Assembly (NCBI GenBank): GCA_946555345.1
Contig: CAMNSS010000001.1
Span: forward strand, 1-64,000
DNA from: an uncultured Eubacterium sp.
GTDB lineage: Bacteria > Bacillota > Clostridia > Peptostreptococcales > Anaerovoracaceae
Length of the DNA stretch: 64,000 nucleotides
Direction: 5' to 3'
Numbering within the stretch: the stretch's first letter is position 1; each line of letters opens with the position of its first letter. This document shows, in pieces, positions 17,698-54,213 of the stretch. The translations under genes were made by a program, and so were the position numbers. The notes beneath the pieces are model-generated. The model ran no database searches. It saw only the letters and a list, made by a program, of their open reading frames with translations, and had not been told where the DNA came from.

Positions 17698-18070
17698 TTT
17701 TTTCTCCTTTTATAATAAAATATTTTTATTAACAGGTAAAATGTCTCCATCCGTTTCCCAAAAGGCTATGAAGCGAGGCAATAAACCAGAAGGGCAATCA
17801 GCCGGAAACAGCAAGCGGAAGCATACTGGACGAACCAGCGGCGGAAAACCCAAAACAGCACCGCTAATCTTAGCCCCGCCAAATCCATGCGCTAAGCGAA
17901 CCTGCAAAGGCCGAAAAGCGTCCGCCAGGCTCAAGCGGACCCGCAAAGACCGAAAAGCGTCCGCCAGATCCAAGCGAACCTGCAAAGGCAAAAAACCGTC
18001 CGCCAAGCTCTAATAAACCTGTCATTCCAAGGAATTAAATATTTCCGCTTATCCCATACCCGCAAGCGCC
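17698..18070. other. Intergenic stretch with 39-nt tandem repeat
   Basis: 373 bp between the LysR gene and the binding-protein gene. No gene is supported. It contains three head-to-tail 39-nt repeats (17894-18010). Because 39 is a multiple of three, the repeats keep frames open on both strands, producing spurious ORFs of 13-residue repeats. Confidence 0.7.
17894..18010. repeat. Tandem repeat, 39 nt x 3
   Basis: The units start at 17894, 17933 and 17972. Each carries the pattern AAGCGAACCTGCAAAG, then CCGAAAAGCGTCCGCCA. The copies differ at a few positions each. No palindrome or ORF function is apparent. Confidence 0.9.
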
Positions 18071-47427: not shown

Positions 47428-48324
47428 CTATGCCAGCATATTCAGCAATGCGCCTACTGCATAATAGTTTTTCAGATTGTAGCCGCCCTTTGCAAAATTC
47501 GCAAAGAGTGTAAAATCGTCAAGATCCTTGCTGCTGTTCTTTCCAAAGGAACCCTTACCCGTAACGCTTTCGCCAGCAATGTTTTCGATCGGCGTGTTAT
47601 CGAGAATCTGCGTTGCCCTTGTCGCCGCACGTTCAGCGATGCCGAACTGGCCGCCCAGTGTATCCTTCACCGATTCCAGGCTCTGATCGAGCGCCTTGCT
47701 AAGCTTTGCTTCATCCACTTGAAGCGCACCCGACTTACTGATGCTCAAGCCTACCGTTGCAAGCGCGCCTTCCGTGGAAAGCGAACGCTGCAAGGATCGC
47801 AGCTGGGCATCCGCCGTCTTGCTTCTGCCCGTGTTGCTTTGCAGGAAAGCCACCGTATCATTATACTGCTTCGCAAACGCTTCTACAGCCGATATGATCT
47901 CTTTCTTGGCGGAATCCACCTCAGCCTGCGCGGATGCCTTTTCCTTATCCGTTACCGCATTCCCGAGCTTTTTCAAAGCGTTTTCATACTTTGAAAATAC
48001 GTTGTTCCTGCTGCTTAATCGCAGAGGGTCAGACGCTGCCTCCAGGTTCTGGAGCGTATTCTTGTAACCAAGCAAAAACGACGATGTCCCTGTGCTTGTC
48101 GCAGTATTTGCACTCGTGCTGCCGGTACTCGCCGTGCTATTTGTGCTTCCCGTGCTGCTGGTGCCGCTGACCTCTTCCGTATCCAGGTTCAGCCTGTCCT
48201 TCAAAGCATCTGTTTCTTCTGCCGCATTATTAACCCAGCTCTTATAATCGAGAGAGTTATCAGTCTTCGAGGTATACGGCGAGCCATACATAGCGTTATA
48301 ATTGGATACTCCGTTAATTGCCAT
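47428..48324 (-). CDS. FliD-like flagellar cap/hook-associated protein
   Basis: A 298-residue protein. After MAINGVSNYN and a Ser/Thr-rich linker (about residues 50-85), the rest matches the C-terminal half of FliD: the FAKQYNDTVAFL helix, the DAQLRSLQRSLS segment, ATVGLSISKSGALQVDEAKLSKAL, and SLESVKDTLGGQFGIAERA. The N-terminal FliD domain and the large outer domains are missing, so it is not a standard full-length cap. It is preceded by an ideal AAGGAGGTGAGATT site and a sigma-D type promoter. It may be a cap variant or another axial component. Confidence 0.75.
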   Translation of the reverse strand: MAINGVSNYNAMYGSPYTSKTDNSLDYKSWVNNAAEETDALKDRLNLDTEEVSGTSSTGSTNSTASTGSTSANTATSTGTSSFLLGYKNTLQNLEAASDPLRLSSRNNVFSKYENALKKLGNAVTDKEKASAQAEVDSAKKEIISAVEAFAKQYNDTVAFLQSNTGRSKTADAQLRSLQRSLSTEGALATVGLSISKSGALQVDEAKLSKALDQSLESVKDTLGGQFGIAERAATRATQILDNTPIENIAGESVTGKGSFGKNSSKDLDDFTLFANFAKGGYNLKNYYAVGALLNMLA

Positions 48325-48358
48325 AATCTCACCTCCTTCCAATACATTCTATAAGGTT

Positions 48359-48484: not shown

Positions 48485-49294
48485 TTAATCAAACCCATGA
48501 TACCCATGAAAGCCCAGCATATAGACCGCCATCGCAATCGCCAGGTTTTCCGAAGGAGTGTCCAAATGCTGCGACCATTCATGCAGTTCGTCCATAACGG
48601 TATCGTGCGGAACTTCAATATCTTCCATTTCATCTACCACTTTCTCGATAACCTGCGGAAGCGCCATGCACATTTGGTAAAACGCATCCGTTTCTCCCGT
48701 TACCAGCGCATAGAACTGATCCATGCTGACCCGCCTGATCAGCTTATGCCCGACCTTTTGCTTATCAACAGTCGTTTCCCATTTTATATTCTGGGAGCGC
48801 TGGGCAATGGCTTCCACCAGAAAACACGCACAATCATCATCCCGCAAAAGCTGGTTTTGCATTTTGATAAATGTTTTCCCGGCAGAAGCCGAATTCATGG
48901 TATTGTACTTATTCTTCATCTCAACATATACGGTTCGTACCCTTCCTGCGCCCGGAATATCGATCCCAGCCGGGTCTCTATAAATAACATCCCAGCCGCC
49001 GCTTTCACCGTTTGGCGGCACTTCGCAATTTTCAATATATTGAAAGATTCCCTGATGGAAATATCCGATATCGTTATTGTTGGATTTATCCCGCTGCCGG
49101 AAAATTTCATTGCTAATGATTTCATCCCAAGAGGAACGGTATACGGTCTTATCAAAAATCAACTTTACAGGATCGATGAGGTTCTTGTTGAAACGTTTCA
49201 AGTCAAACGAGGCCAGCTTTTCTCCATATTTTTTGATCGTTGCCTTTACATGGCGTTCAAACGCTTCTTCTGTAATAAATGATAATGCGCACAT
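48485..49294 (-). CDS. Eco47II/Sau96I-like type II restriction endonuclease
   Basis: A 269-residue endonuclease of the Eco47II family, predicted to cut GGNCC. Family segments are LIDPVKLIFDK, NNDIGYFHQGIFQYI, GWDVIYRDP, VEMKNKYNTMNSASAGKTF and IRRVSMDQFYALVTGETDAF. The Asp in GWDVIY and the ExK in VEMKNK look like the catalytic PD-(D/E)xK residues. Its ATG overlaps the stop of the upstream fusion gene (TAATG) and GGAG lies 8 nt before it. It is the last gene of the restriction operon. Confidence 0.88.
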   Translation of the reverse strand: MCALSFITEEAFERHVKATIKKYGEKLASFDLKRFNKNLIDPVKLIFDKTVYRSSWDEIISNEIFRQRDKSNNNDIGYFHQGIFQYIENCEVPPNGESGGWDVIYRDPAGIDIPGAGRVRTVYVEMKNKYNTMNSASAGKTFIKMQNQLLRDDDCACFLVEAIAQRSQNIKWETTVDKQKVGHKLIRRVSMDQFYALVTGETDAFYQMCMALPQVIEKVVDEMEDIEVPHDTVMDELHEWSQHLDTPSENLAIAMAVYMLGFHGYHGFD

Positions 49295-51396
49295 TACAAA
49301 CACTCCAATCCTTCCCTGATTTTTAATGCGATTTCGCACGCCAGATTGACAGGGACTGCGTTTCCTACCTGCTTGTACTGGCTGTTCACGCTCCCGCAAA
49401 ATTCCCATTCATCCGGAAAGGTCTGGCATCTTGCATTTTCCCTGACGGTAAATGGCCTTGCCTCTAGCGGATGACACCTGTCTGTCTGCTTTTGGCTCGG
49501 CGAGGTCAGCACGGTCAAAGATGGTTCGTCCAGGCTCAACCGTCTTAAAATCCCGGTTCTTCCGCCTCCCATATCCCAGCAGCTTTTCATGTATTCCTTT
49601 GCCTTATCCTTGGGGATATCCCGCCAGTACCCGCCTGGCGGGACTAATTCAAAAATCGACTTTTTGTAATCAGAATACCCAATGCCTGCACTTTCCGGGC
49701 AATCTAGCAAAACATCCCGCAAGACCGGCTTATAGTCGTGCGGTTTGGGAAATTCAAAATGGATTTTTTCCGCTAAATCATTCCTAATGCCAATTGTGAT
49801 CAACCGTTCCCGCTTCTGTGGAACACCATAATCCCACGCATTTAAAACGCTGATCTGATCTTCACCAATGGTATAACCTTCCTGCTGGAAAATATCGAGA
49901 ATCGTTTTGTACGTCCGCCCTTTATCATGGCTTTTCAATCCCTTCACATTTTCAAAGAGAAACATCTTTGGCTTTAGTTTGTTTAAAAATTTCGCATAAT
50001 GGTAAAACAACGTTCCCCTTGCATCTTCAAGCCCCAGCCTGTTGCCCGCATATGAAAAGGACTGGCATGGCGCGCCGCCGGATAATAAATCCAACTCGCC
50101 TTTTTTTAAGGAAAAATACGCTTCTAGATCCTGTCCCGAAATGTTGGCAATATCATCACAAACCACATTCCAATGCGGACGGTTCGTCCGCAACGTATCC
50201 GCTGCAGCTTTATCGAGCTCAATCAGCCCCAGCGTTTCAAACCCGGCTTTTTCGACCCCCAGCGCCAAGCCGCCCGCCCCGGCAAATAATTCGATCGTCG
50301 TAAATTTTTGGTTTCCCCGTTTGCACGCACCGCTTCGCAGCCCTCGGTGGATCTGTCCGCCCTGGCTACCCTGTTGGTCCTCTCCACTCCGTTTCTCTTC
50401 CGGGTTCCGCTCCCACGGCTCTGCCTGTGCATAAATAGAACCCGGCAAAGAAATCAAGTTCACATCAAACTTTAATGATGGTTCAACTTTAGAGCTTGCG
50501 CTATGGATTCTCATTGAGATCTCCCAGCCTTCATTGCATACGATTTGGATCGTATTATCCGATCCCGGTTTATACCCGATATGATAAATCCTATCCGGCA
50601 ATTTCAGCAACGGCGCTTTAACTAAAGGCTCATGCTCGCCCGCCCTTGTATTCAATGTCCCATTAATATTTACTGCTTCAACTCTCGTAAACCTCCCTTT
50701 ATCATCAGCAATTATTTTATAAAAATCATTGCGGCCAATTAAATACCGAATAAGCCTTCCCGGAATTAACCCTGGATTATCTTGATCAAGCCTAACCATC
50801 TCATCCATAAAGGCTTTCAATATAGGCTTATAATATTTCTCTGCTTTATTCTCGATATCTGCCCATAAGATAGGGTTTTCCCTGATTCTGGAGTCTTCCC
50901 GTATTTCACTTAACTCATCAAAAATCGGAGTCACTTCAAGAAAATATACATAGGAACAAGGAATGTCAAACCATTCTTTTCCGAAATCGATCCTTCCCGA
51001 TAACCTCGAATGCTTTACCGCATGATGGTTATGCTTGCAAGAAAAACCAACTTCCCACCCATTTTGTGTCCTGATACATAAAACGTCCCTTACATCGCCC
51101 ACCTGCCCTTTTGCATCAGACTGCAAGGATAAATACAGCGGGGAATTTCCCTCCGGATAAGTAAGCTGTGGTTCAAGCCGCATGATTACCTTTGTTGCCG
51201 CATCTGCCGCTTCCATAATATTTCGTTTTAAATCATCCGCAGCATTTTCAAAAAAACCTTTTGCCGTTTCTAATGGCGCAGAAGCTTCAATAATCACTTC
51301 CTGCTCTCTCGAAAGCATCCTGTGCAGCGAATCTACGCATGCATATTCAAAGGCTTTCCCATTGCTTGTTTGAATACCCTTTGCCATACGATTCAT
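49294..51396 (-). CDS. Fused HaeIII-like endonuclease and cytosine-5 DNA methyltransferase
   Basis: One 700-residue protein. Residues 1 to about 327 match the HaeIII endonuclease family (GGCC cutters): GKAFEYACVDSL, RLEPQL, GDVRDVLCIR, the SCKHNHHAVKHSRLS block, DFGKEWFDIPCS. Residues about 328-364 are a polar Gly/Arg/Gln linker. From about 365 to 700 is a complete m5C methyltransferase: motif I FAGAGG, IV GGAPCQSF with the catalytic Cys, VI FENVKGL, VIII GVPQKRERL, X YKQVGNAVPVN. Both halves look intact. Normally these are two genes. The ATG directly follows the stop of the upstream methyltransferase (TAAATG). It probably cuts and methylates GGCC, unless one half has lost activity. Confidence 0.9.
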   Translation of the reverse strand: MNRMAKGIQTSNGKAFEYACVDSLHRMLSREQEVIIEASAPLETAKGFFENAADDLKRNIMEAADAATKVIMRLEPQLTYPEGNSPLYLSLQSDAKGQVGDVRDVLCIRTQNGWEVGFSCKHNHHAVKHSRLSGRIDFGKEWFDIPCSYVYFLEVTPIFDELSEIREDSRIRENPILWADIENKAEKYYKPILKAFMDEMVRLDQDNPGLIPGRLIRYLIGRNDFYKIIADDKGRFTRVEAVNINGTLNTRAGEHEPLVKAPLLKLPDRIYHIGYKPGSDNTIQIVCNEGWEISMRIHSASSKVEPSLKFDVNLISLPGSIYAQAEPWERNPEEKRSGEDQQGSQGGQIHRGLRSGACKRGNQKFTTIELFAGAGGLALGVEKAGFETLGLIELDKAAADTLRTNRPHWNVVCDDIANISGQDLEAYFSLKKGELDLLSGGAPCQSFSYAGNRLGLEDARGTLFYHYAKFLNKLKPKMFLFENVKGLKSHDKGRTYKTILDIFQQEGYTIGEDQISVLNAWDYGVPQKRERLITIGIRNDLAEKIHFEFPKPHDYKPVLRDVLLDCPESAGIGYSDYKKSIFELVPPGGYWRDIPKDKAKEYMKSCWDMGGGRTGILRRLSLDEPSLTVLTSPSQKQTDRCHPLEARPFTVRENARCQTFPDEWEFCGSVNSQYKQVGNAVPVNLACEIALKIREGLECL

Positions 51397-52335
51397 TTAT
51401 CCTTTCAGAAAAGCTTCAAGAATTGGGCGCACGGAGTTTGCGATATGTTCCGCCAAAGTAACTGGAACTGCGTTTCCAATTTGCTTATACTTCGACGTTA
51501 GATCGCCAGCAAATTCCATGTTTTCAGGAAATGTTTGAATCAAGGCCGCCTCCTTATAACTCAGCCGCCTCGTATGCCCTTCGCCAAACACCCATTTGTC
51601 CTTCTCTATTTTTTTCATATCCGGAGAACCCGGCCAAAGAGCCACTTGCTTCGCCATCGCTGGAATCGTATAAGAAACCTGATTCCAGTCCCGCTTTCGA
51701 TTCCTCGACATAAACCGTGATGAATATGGGGCATCGCACACTTCTTCCGACGCAGCTTCTAGCATATTCCCGATGGCATCCATCAATGTTACCGGCTTTC
51801 CCTGATACGGGGGAATATGAAAGGACTTAACACGCAAATCTTTTCGAAAACCTGCAATGATAACTCTTTCCCTATCCTGCGGAACGCCAAAGTCTTTCGC
51901 ATTTACTAATTGTGAAAAAACATCATATCCACACCGTGAAAAATCTTCAATGATTGATTCAAAAACCTGCCCGTTTCCCATAGTGAGAAGGCCTTTTACA
52001 TTTTCTCCTATAAATGCAAGCGGTTTTTTCCCCTCAAGGAATCGTACATATTGATGGTATAGCTTATTCCTTTTGTCATCAATTTTTCTCGGTCCTGACA
52101 ACGAAAACCCTTGGCACGGAAAACCGCCGAGCATAATATCACAATCTGGAACCGTTTCTAAATCCACATTTGCAATATCCCCACAGACAACTGTCGCCCC
52201 GCTCCATGCACGATGGGTTTTACAAGCATCCTGATCAAAGTCATTTGCCCACAACGTCTTAAATCCAGCATTATCAAAGCCCATATCCAGACCGCCAGCG
52301 CCGCAGAACAAACTAACCGCTGTAAATTCTCTCAT
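51397..52335 (-). CDS. Type II DNA (cytosine-5) methyltransferase
   Basis: A 312-residue m5C methyltransferase. Motif I is SLFCGAGGLDMGF, motif IV GGFPCQGFSLSG, motif VI FIGENVKGLL, motif VIII GVPQDRERVII, motif X YKQIGNAVPVTLAEHI. The variable region between VIII and IX sets specificity and cannot be read by eye. By elimination it likely protects the GGNCC sites of the Eco47II-like enzyme. Start at 52335 has GGAG 6 nt upstream; the ATG at 52341 touches it. It is the first gene of the restriction operon, so modification is translated first. Confidence 0.92.
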   Translation of the reverse strand: MREFTAVSLFCGAGGLDMGFDNAGFKTLWANDFDQDACKTHRAWSGATVVCGDIANVDLETVPDCDIMLGGFPCQGFSLSGPRKIDDKRNKLYHQYVRFLEGKKPLAFIGENVKGLLTMGNGQVFESIIEDFSRCGYDVFSQLVNAKDFGVPQDRERVIIAGFRKDLRVKSFHIPPYQGKPVTLMDAIGNMLEAASEEVCDAPYSSRFMSRNRKRDWNQVSYTIPAMAKQVALWPGSPDMKKIEKDKWVFGEGHTRRLSYKEAALIQTFPENMEFAGDLTSKYKQIGNAVPVTLAEHIANSVRPILEAFLKG

Positions 52336-52360
52336 CGGCATCTCCTTATTTTTTTATAAC

Positions 52361-52389
52361 ATTATATCACATTCCGAACATTTGTTCAA
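52361..52389 (-). promoter_or_regulatory. Promoter of the restriction-modification operon with LexA-like box
   Basis: On the minus strand: -35 TTGAAC (52384-52389), 17-nt spacer, perfect -10 TATAAT (52361-52366). GAACATTTGTTC (plus strand, 52376-52387) overlaps the -35 and spacer and fits the Firmicute LexA box pattern GAAC-N4-GTTC. Confidence 0.7.
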
Positions 52390-52497
52390 CCGTTTGTTGG
52401 ACTGCCTATTGGAAAACAATTCTGCGGCGGCCCGCAATCTGCCACTTTATTTTAACAACGCTTCAAACTCCGCTTCATTTCCTGCAACTGCCTCCTT

Positions 52498-54213
52498 TCA
52501 CGCTTTCCCCCTTACCACGCGACCTTCTACCATCACCAATTCCGGTTTCATCTCATGGATCTCATACGGGGAAACCGTGAAAATATCCCGATCCAGCACC
52601 ATCAGGTCTGCCCGCTTGCCAGCTTCGATTGAGCCAATCTGGTCATCCAGGCGAAGCTGCTTCGCCCCGTTGATCGTATAGCCGCGAATCAAATCTTCAA
52701 CCGCAAGCCGCTCTTCCTCCGGCGGAAACACCGCAGCGCCCTTTCCACCTTCCGCCGTCTCCCGGCATACATGTACATCTTGGCACGCATGCCCATCCTG
52801 GCGTGCATATCCGTCCTGACGCGTATGCCCGATTTCGATTCCCAGAAACGGATTCCAGCGATCCAGAAGCTGGAGCGTCACTTCATCAGACGAGAACGTT
52901 ACAGTCGCCCCGCTATCGACCATCGTCTTGGCACGGAACAGCTTGTTTGCACGTTCTTCACCGAGCAAGCGGGCGTTTTCCGCAGCAGTCCCGTAATCAA
53001 TTCCGCCATGCCAGTGCGGCGTGAAATTTGCAAAGATGCCCATTTCCGCAAATCGCGGGATATCTTCGTCGCGCTGCGTTTCCAGATGTGCCAGCGTGAT
53101 ATGGATCTTTAACCCGCCGCATTCCCTCTTCACCCGCTCCGCGCAGTCCAGCAGCATTTTCGAAGCGCCTTCCCCGACGGTATGAGCATGAAAATCGATC
53201 CCCTCCGCATTGAGCTTTGCCAGAAGCTGATAGAGCTTTTCTTCCGAAAGCATCGTCCCGCCCGTCGTCTCCGCATCGTGATAAGGCGTGACCAGCTTCG
53301 CCGTATGGATGCGGTGCGTTCCGTCAAACATGATCTTGACCGTATTGAATTTTAAATGCTTCGTTTCATAGAGCGATTTGTACCGCTTGAGTTCATCGAT
53401 GGCAGTATCCGCCTTGTCCGGGGTCGTGATGATATAAGCCGCTTCCCATCTGATCGGAAGCTCCCCGCGCAGATCCATGTCTGCCAGCAGACGGTATGTC
53501 TCTTCCTCCCTGAAATAATTTCCTGCGTCATAAACCGTCGTAACGCCATGATCCAAGAGGTAGTCGGCGATTTTCAGGATGCCTGCTTTCATTTCCTTGC
53601 GGGAAACACCGCCTGCCATCGACAGCAGCGGCAGCATTGTCATCTCCTTGATACACCCCGTCAGCCTGCCCTTTGCATCGCGTTCATAATAGCTGTACCC
53701 CGGCGCGATGTCCTCGATATCTTCATGCAGCTTCATGAATTTCATCGCCCCGCTGTTGAGCCATGCGCTGTGGCATTCCTGCTCCATGAGGATCACCGGG
53801 CGGCGTTTTACAATTTTATCGAGGTCCTCCCTCGCCAGCATTTCGCCGCAAAGCGCTTCAACCTGACCGAAGAAAGCCGCATAATACAGCCGGAACGGGT
53901 GGTTTTTGACGTGCTGGCGCAGCTTGGAAAGTATTTCCGCTTTCGATTTGCAGTCCCAGATCGGCATGCTGTCGTCCTCGCCGCCCATCATGACGCTGAG
54001 GCCGATGTGCGTGTGGGAATCGATGAAGCCAGGCAGCACCGTACGGTCTTGTAAATCGATCACTTTCGTGCCGGCATCAATCTGCGGTCCGGCTTCGCTA
54101 TTCTTTCCCACTTTTTCAAATATGCCGCCGCAGATCACCGCCATTTCCGCCCATGGATTTTTTTCGTCTGCGGTAAAGATCTTGCCATTTTTTAAAATGA
54201 TTCGTTCAGTCAT
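52498..54213 (-). CDS. Amidohydrolase family protein (YtcJ-like)
   Basis: A 571-residue metal-dependent hydrolase. N-terminal ILKNGKIFTADEKNPWAEM and LPGFIDSHTHIGLSV carry the HxH metal site. EGIDFHAHTVGEGA and ITLAHLETQ supply further histidines, VTFSSDEVT the Asp, and a C-terminal YTINGAKQL...GSIEAGKRADLMVLDRD is typical of the superfamily. Near residue 480 a hexapeptide repeat (HTRQDG, YARQDG, HACQDV, HVCRET) from an 18-nt repeat is inserted. The substrate is unknown; relatives act on amides or N-substituted amino acids. A small gene overlaps its start by 8 nt. Confidence 0.88.
   Translation of the reverse strand: MTERIILKNGKIFTADEKNPWAEMAVICGGIFEKVGKNSEAGPQIDAGTKVIDLQDRTVLPGFIDSHTHIGLSVMMGGEDDSMPIWDCKSKAEILSKLRQHVKNHPFRLYYAAFFGQVEALCGEMLAREDLDKIVKRRPVILMEQECHSAWLNSGAMKFMKLHEDIEDIAPGYSYYERDAKGRLTGCIKEMTMLPLLSMAGGVSRKEMKAGILKIADYLLDHGVTTVYDAGNYFREEETYRLLADMDLRGELPIRWEAAYIITTPDKADTAIDELKRYKSLYETKHLKFNTVKIMFDGTHRIHTAKLVTPYHDAETTGGTMLSEEKLYQLLAKLNAEGIDFHAHTVGEGASKMLLDCAERVKRECGGLKIHITLAHLETQRDEDIPRFAEMGIFANFTPHWHGGIDYGTAAENARLLGEERANKLFRAKTMVDSGATVTFSSDEVTLQLLDRWNPFLGIEIGHTRQDGYARQDGHACQDVHVCRETAEGGKGAAVFPPEEERLAVEDLIRGYTINGAKQLRLDDQIGSIEAGKRADLMVLDRDIFTVSPYEIHEMKPELVMVEGRVVRGKA
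52758..52829. repeat. In-frame 18-nt repeat, four units, in amidohydrolase
   Basis: Four consecutive 18-nt units encode xxRQDG-like hexapeptides. The reading frame is kept. It lies between the metal-site aspartate and the C-terminal domain. Confidence 0.8.

Follow-up and report, generated by a model that had tools for sequence, protein, structure and literature searches.

A HaeIII-type endonuclease joined in frame to a C5 cytosine methyltransferase at what appears to be the border of two stacked restriction-modification systems

Restriction and modification in one chain are described for type IIC/IIG enzymes (Eco57I, MmeI and BcgI type), in which the nuclease is N-terminal and the methyltransferase C-terminal; according to PMC4081073 the methyltransferase in most of them is of the gamma class, and cleavage falls at a distance from the site. 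An engineered precedent, RM.Eco29kI, is an in-frame, head-to-tail fusion of the endonuclease and the methyltransferase of one type II system, in which both activities survived (the methyltransferase at 80% and the nuclease at roughly a third, with hundredfold weaker phage protection); its authors, whose examples included HaeIII and Sau96I, predicted that genes lying head to tail could fuse in nature (PMC3039593). Natural in-frame fusions of neighbouring restriction-modification (R-M) genes are reported from Mycoplasma hominis (DCM8/DAM3 and M12.MhoVII; PMC10305163, PMC12898733). This study concerns a 64,000-nucleotide stretch of DNA (the window) from an uncultured Eubacterium sp. (assembly GCA_946555345.1, contig CAMNSS010000001.1), in which a HaeIII-type endonuclease (R1) continues through a linker into a C5 cytosine methyltransferase (M2), with the gene for a separate C5 methyltransferase (M1) directly upstream and that for an Eco47II-type endonuclease (R2) directly downstream. 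The fusion has the domain order of the type IIC/IIG enzymes, with both domains in one polypeptide, but its methyltransferase is of the C5 type (PF00145) and not of the gamma class (NPPY/F/W) found in the majority, though not all, of type IIC enzymes. By family, neighbourhood and tree its two activities would not share a site (GGCC versus GGNCC), the methyltransferase probably being that of another system. It thus resembles the prediction made in PMC3039593, except that RM.Eco29kI joins the partners of one system and the window protein apparently those of two. The Mycoplasma hominis fusions join methyltransferase to methyltransferase, whereas the window chain includes a nuclease. A keyword search of the open-access literature gave, among the matches listed, neither a natural fusion of a HaeIII-type nuclease to a C5 methyltransferase nor a natural fusion of a nuclease and a methyltransferase from two systems.

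As for the families concerned, HaeIII cleaves GGCC (PMC4081073), and an Eco47II homologue of Mycoplasma hominis with an adjacent C5 methyltransferase has been assigned GGNCC (PMC10305163). GGNCC C5 methyltransferases have been shown in Mycoplasma agalactiae (MAGa3950, which protects against Sau96I) and in group B Streptococcus (SagCOH1II) (PMC9465063, PMC13343189); for M2 these prove no more than that such enzymes exist. In M.SsoII, M.Ecl18kI and M.EcoRII a helix-turn-helix (HTH) domain stands ahead of the C5 domain (PMC12707154), as it does in relatives of M2; this domain is absent from the window protein.

The fusion is encoded by a single open reading frame (ORF) of 700 amino acids at 49294..51396, which in the ORF listing of the window runs without interruption on the minus strand, the strand of all four R-M genes. 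On the plus strand the longest ORFs listed in the same interval are just 111-130 amino acids, and plus frame 1 is full of stops. The profile RE_HaeIII (PF09556) matches fusion residues 13-318 over its whole length (1-298 of 298; expect value, E, 2.7e-112), and DNA_methylase (PF00145) matches residues 365-693 (profile 1-322 of 324; E 6.1e-82); both matches are far above chance at these E-values. Pfam and the ORF listing therefore agree with the sequence-only reading made earlier of this DNA, which had proposed an uninterrupted 700-codon frame holding a HaeIII-like nuclease, a linker of 35 residues and a C5 methyltransferase. The nuclease half comprises residues 1-328 (50413..51396), the linker residues 329-363 (50308..50412) and the methyltransferase half residues 364-700 (49297..50307). 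The HaeIII-family blocks named in that reading (GDVRDVLCIR, SCKHNHHAVKHSRLS and DFGKEWF) were all found in the fusion sequence. The methyltransferase half contains the blocks FAGAGG, GGAPCQSFS, FENVKGL, QKRERL and QVGNAVPVNLA, which are core C5 methyltransferase motifs; the blocks claimed for the last part of the protein are thus present.

Analysis of related loci was used to determine which methyltransferase goes with which nuclease. A scan of genome contigs gave 95 stretches; the 69 that code for a relative were taken as loci, and pairing was assessed with the four window parts as probes within the DNA around each locus. M2-type methyltransferases were found at 63 loci and M1-type ones at six. 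An Eco47II-type gene, whole or partial, was present in 55 of the 63 M2-type loci and a HaeIII-type gene in none of them; the eight M2-type loci with no Eco47II-type gene nearby are L035, L037, L051, L054, L058, L066, L076 and L077. All six M1-type loci have an unfused HaeIII-type gene beside the methyltransferase, and none has an Eco47II-type gene. Five of the HaeIII-family loci added by searching the phylum and the order (L082, L083, L087, L088 and L089) likewise have an M1-type gene next to them. Unfused examples of the two systems are also known from the taxonomic family of the window, at L079 (G050) and L089 (G573).

A tree of 69 methyltransferase rows was built from 54 of the 63 M2-type loci (at least 320 residues), L086, ten M1-type relatives, the two window rows and two paralogues from the window's own genome with very long branches. 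The fused half joins L009, L010 and L011 (99/97) within the clade of Eco47II partners (99/95), and M1 joins L012 within the clade of HaeIII partners (100/89). M1, a separate protein of 314 amino acids (51397..52341), has M.HaeIII (1dct) as its best solved match (238.8 bits, E 8.8e-70), against only 150.3 bits for the fused methyltransferase half and the same chain. Neighbourhood and tree thus mark the fused half as the GGNCC-type M2 and not the GGCC partner of R1, and M1, by its neighbourhood, as the probable cognate GGCC methylase of R1, present as a free gene. R2, at 48485..49294, belongs to the RE_Eco47II family (PF09553; E 2.3e-88 for a longer ORF at 48485-49408). The ATG at 49294-49292 is its likeliest start, since in the five relatives examined (L009, L010, L011, L018 and L060) the additional codons of the longer ORF include stops.

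Comparison with the nearest relatives of each system gave the same division. L012 has the same two genes as M1 and the R1 half, in the same order and with 81% and 80% identity, and L009-L011 share the M2 half and R2 genes of an Eco47II/Sau96I-type pair (88-90% and 78-79% identity). The nuclease is free in L012 and L067, which stand closest to R1, and stops there at ...EPW, whereas in the window ...EPW continues straight into the linker and on into the methyltransferase of what appears to be another system. In the Eco47II/Sau96I-type relatives M2 begins with an HTH domain, whereas in the window the R1 nuclease and the linker stand there.

From the synteny counts and the tree, M1, R1, M2 and R2 read as two ordinary methyltransferase-nuclease pairs in tandem. 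Our preferred explanation, to which we give about two chances in three, is that two complete type II systems, M1-R1 (GGCC) and M2-R2 (GGNCC), are stacked head to tail and that R1 has become fused in frame to M2. On this explanation M1 would methylate GGCC and so guard the cell against the tethered R1, while GGNCC methylation by the M2 half would guard it against the free R2, and the flexible linker would let each half work independently. The fusion would also fix the ratio of R1 to M2 at one to one. Lying where the HTH regulator of M2 would be, it would leave the output of M2 to be set by the operon.

Analysis of M2 N-termini bears on this last point. The HTH probe detected an in-frame HTH at the place of R1 and the linker in the three closest M2 relatives (L009, L010 and L011), and Pfam found HTH_26 in L009 (E 9.5e-17), L060 (E 2.4e-17) and L013 (E 4.1e-16). 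Over the 69 loci the probe found an HTH in frame in 18 and not in 46 (six of these M1-type), with no intact start in five; a stricter test gave 17 in frame and four as a separate upstream frame. HTH_3 lies ahead of the M2-type methyltransferase in L055 and L059, HTH_17 occurs in L034 and L038 but below the family cut-off, and several M2 relatives begin directly at the methyltransferase. In the fusion Pfam detected no HTH family, and the best match of the HTH probe in the window, at E 0.21, is not credible. The occurrence of HTH_3, HTH_26 or neither thus suggests that domains are gained and lost at the N-terminus of M2, and the differing HTH types that this methyltransferase has seemingly acquired regulator domains on several occasions. 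Since the three closest relatives carry an HTH, its loss in the window lineage is the likeliest course; R1 might instead have been fused to a copy of M2 already lacking one.

Family-conserved residues are kept in both halves, whereas loss of catalytic residues had been named beforehand as something that would refute the sequence-only reading. All 14 aligned HaeIII-family rows (the window included, four of them very distant) share the R1 residues E75, D101, S119, K121 and D137, which are presumably catalytic. Amino-acid changes are suppressed in both halves: the ratio of nonsynonymous to synonymous differences (pN/pS) is 0.178 for R1 against L012 (79.8% identity) and 0.067 for M2 against L009 (90.2% identity). 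For the free genes it is 0.169 for M1 against L012 (80.6% identity) and 0.133 for R2 against L009 (83.2% identity). Site counts also fit, weakly, a long exposure to both nucleases. In 284 kilobases (kb) of the window's own genome, which measures 2.85 megabases (Mb), the observed to expected ratio (O/E) is 0.49 for GGCC (block bootstrap 0.47-0.52) and 0.54 for GGNCC (0.49-0.60). In six same-genus genomes (493 kb) that have no match to either nuclease family, O/E ranges from 0.40 to 0.82 for GGCC (pooled 0.68) and from 0.75 to 0.87 for GGNCC (pooled 0.78).

Several points weigh against the reading as two stacked systems. The specificities are assigned by family and neighbours, and the GGNCC assignment of the Mycoplasma hominis homologue is itself uncertain, its methylation score lying just above the cut-off (PMC10305163). 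At two HaeIII-family loci from the phylum search, L084 and L085, the roughly 1.4 kb on either side contains no M1-type gene, so this pairing is not universal. The branch of the fused row (0.14) is longer than those of its sisters and would also fit relaxed constraint. As to site depletion, the control GCNGC is also slightly lower here (O/E 0.91 against 1.03 pooled), G031, a genome with neither nuclease family, has a GGCC O/E of 0.40 (in a 36.7-kb sample), below that of the own genome, and CGCG is rarer still in the own genome (O/E 0.29). Because synonymous sites are saturated or nearly so, the pN/pS values reflect constraint over the long term and cannot reveal selection that acted after the fusion. 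As a separate observation, the shortage of CGCG hints at another restriction system in this genome.

We hold to be unlikely a recent, near-neutral accident, in which the fusion is real, one half, likeliest the nuclease, is inactive or losing activity, and the tether has no role. It shares its architecture with two stacked systems and differs on activity only, and the likelihoods given to the two overlap. The rarity of the fusion speaks for it. Matches to PF09556 were found in one of 100 genomes of relatives (the own genome), in five of 398 phylum genomes (the own and four others, with frames of 320-334 amino acids) and in 21 of 393 order genomes (the own and 20 others: three of 327-329 amino acids, 16 distant ones of 341-437 and one of 591). 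Judged by frame lengths and probes, none of the 24 other HaeIII-family matches in the phylum and order genomes is fused to a methyltransferase, and the search for further proteins with the same domain pair, as had been suggested, left the window as the single occurrence among these genomes. The 591-amino-acid frame (L106) was dropped as a second fusion, as it crosses a stretch of unknown bases. The other nuclease family, PF09553, was found in two of 100 genomes of relatives and two of 398 phylum genomes, the own genome included, in frames of ordinary length. The lack of credible relatives of the linker and the longer branch of the fused row also favour an accident, as does the threefold lower nuclease activity and hundredfold weaker phage protection of the engineered fusion (PMC3039593). 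Against it stand the invariant residues, the absence of any stop or frameshift, the low pN/pS and the depletion of GGCC and GGNCC; this evidence concerns function over the long term and not activity once the two halves had been joined.

Carriage of R1 by phages was considered and rejected: a scan of viral contigs, sensitive to close relatives only, gave seven stretches that fit the pattern and confirmed none. Records in which 80% of the fusion is covered numbered none for phages and two for plasmids; the two plasmid matches take in both halves, and each is annotated as two features. Among the order genomes, 17 of the 20 other matches to RE_HaeIII (L090-L106, genus g316) are distant relatives with frames mostly of 341-365 amino acids and no methyltransferase of the M1 or the M2 type within roughly 1.4 kb on each side. 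The neighbours of L095 and L099 look, by eye, like V-type ATPase genes. Given such neighbours and the lack of a nearby methyltransferase, the proteins of this group may not be restriction enzymes.

Analysis of the linker bears on how the join arose and on whether it is real. The linker DNA (105 base pairs, bp) has a guanine plus cytosine content of 0.63, against 0.42 in R1 and 0.48 in the methyltransferase core. Its first codon lies at the position of the stop codon in L012 and L067, and it occupies the place of the HTH domain in the closest relatives of M2. A sequence search across the own genome found it in single copy, the tandem-array scan of the window placed it in no array, and a search of phage and plasmid records gave no match; an origin as a repeat copy was therefore rejected. 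In 295 other genomes of the family, matches of 20-32 bases occurred in five (per-genome E 0.003-0.009), close to the three or so expected by chance at that E limit. By these searches the linker has no credible relative elsewhere. The sequence-only reading had explained the join by loss of a stop codon through a low-complexity insertion process seen elsewhere in the genome. Stop loss fits, since the linker starts at the relatives' stop codon, and could have come about through some insertion, deletion or substitution; the low-complexity process finds no support in the copy, array and record searches. An 18-bp tandem repeat (3.1 copies, 52776-52830), which lies in the upstream amidohydrolase gene and encodes the in-frame peptide repeat RQDGYARQDGHACQDVHV, is possibly what that reading had in mind. 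A further tandem repeat in the window (17894-18010) has 3.0 copies of a 39-bp unit.

An AlphaFold model of residues 1-365 (seven sequences) had a mean predicted local distance difference test (pLDDT) score of 74. Residues 332-365 scored below 50, and the linker is therefore predicted to be flexible and disordered. A fold search with the model of the R1 half, which is only fair at this mean pLDDT, gave no match at E 0.001.

Improbable in our judgement is an assembly or base-calling artefact, in which the join is due to an error in the linker and R1 and M2 are in truth separate neighbouring genes. The coincidence of the relatives' stop codon with the first linker codon would suit it, and because two of the three frames are open across the linker, a minor error could mask the boundary. 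The source genome is a draft assembly (2.85 Mb in 36 contigs, 96% complete) and the only one in which the fusion was seen; searches of relatives, of phylum and order genomes and of viral contigs found no second assembly of the locus. Restoring only the R1 stop would, however, leave M2 stranded. No in-frame ATG, GTG or TTG occurs from fusion residue 318 to 376, and the next one, at residue 377, lies inside the first methyltransferase motif, so that the M2 half lacks a usual start of its own ahead of that motif; an in-frame CTG at residue 353 is a possible start. All four genes are otherwise open, their junctions read TAAATG (M1 and R1) and TAATG (the fusion and R2), and the linker is not a tandem array, all of which argues against an error.

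Very improbable is the single-chain, self-protecting GGCC enzyme (type IIC-like) of the sequence-only reading, which has in its favour both domains in one chain with the nuclease first, like most type IIC enzymes (PMC4081073), but is rejected by neighbours and tree, with the methyltransferase half in the Eco47II-partner clade, an M.HaeIII-like gene adjacent and 0 of 63 loci pairing this type of methyltransferase with a HaeIII-type nuclease. The question of how cutting is held back until the DNA is modified accordingly does not arise, since the probable cognate GGCC methylase of R1 is a free gene. Single-chain enzymes have been argued to pass through a monomeric stage that methylates and does not cut (PMC12707154), and this argument would fail to carry over if the tethered methyltransferase leaves the nuclease's own site unprotected.

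The two proposed systems look like one operon. The TAAATG junction between M1 and R1, the TAATG in which the R2 start ATG overlaps the fusion stop, an AAGGAG upstream of M1 and a promoter-like site ahead of M1 (52361..52389, minus strand; TTGAAC-17-TATAAT with TG before the second hexamer) suggest that M1, R1-M2 and R2 form one translationally coupled unit. A terminator-like hairpin (52422..52437, minus strand) lies between the upstream amidohydrolase gene and M1. Both the promoter and the hairpin are consensus matches only, of kinds found at rates not far above shuffled sequence (14 promoter-like sites against 8.1 expected and six hairpins against 4.5 expected in the region). The upstream amidohydrolase has many paralogues. 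On the other side a FliD_C-like ORF (47428-48342) adjoins the operon; it has one weak paralogue in the own genome, and of the 61 genomes searched the other 60 gave no match. Several more C5 methyltransferase genes lie beyond the window in the own genome (contigs C8, C5, C2 and C26), two of them adjacent on C8, and PF00145 gave nine matches there in total, the two of the window included, some being pieces of one gene.

Taken on its genes and relatives, the fusion is best described as a border join of two stacked R-M systems, seen once, which recasts the single self-protecting enzyme first proposed. If the frame is confirmed, it exemplifies a route to bifunctional R-M proteins by read-through at the border of two stacked systems and not by union of a cognate nuclease and methyltransferase, as in the laboratory precedent (PMC3039593). 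Should both halves be active, then a C-terminal extension of some 370 residues is compatible with the function of a HaeIII-type nuclease, and the regulatory N-terminal domain of a methyltransferase can be replaced. For the recognition of self-protecting enzymes domain content alone may mislead, and it is the neighbours that tell which methyltransferase pairs with which nuclease. A more far-reaching view, which we consider doubtful, is that this is a natural protein spanning two R-M systems at once, with the nuclease of one tethered to the methyltransferase of the other in place of the latter's regulator domain. If so, neither system could be lost or silenced without disturbing the other, and the two would form one addictive, co-regulated and co-inherited unit; through the 1:1 tether the GGNCC-protecting enzyme would carry the GGCC cutter to DNA, and the halves would meet at GGGCC and GGCCC, which are sites of both systems.

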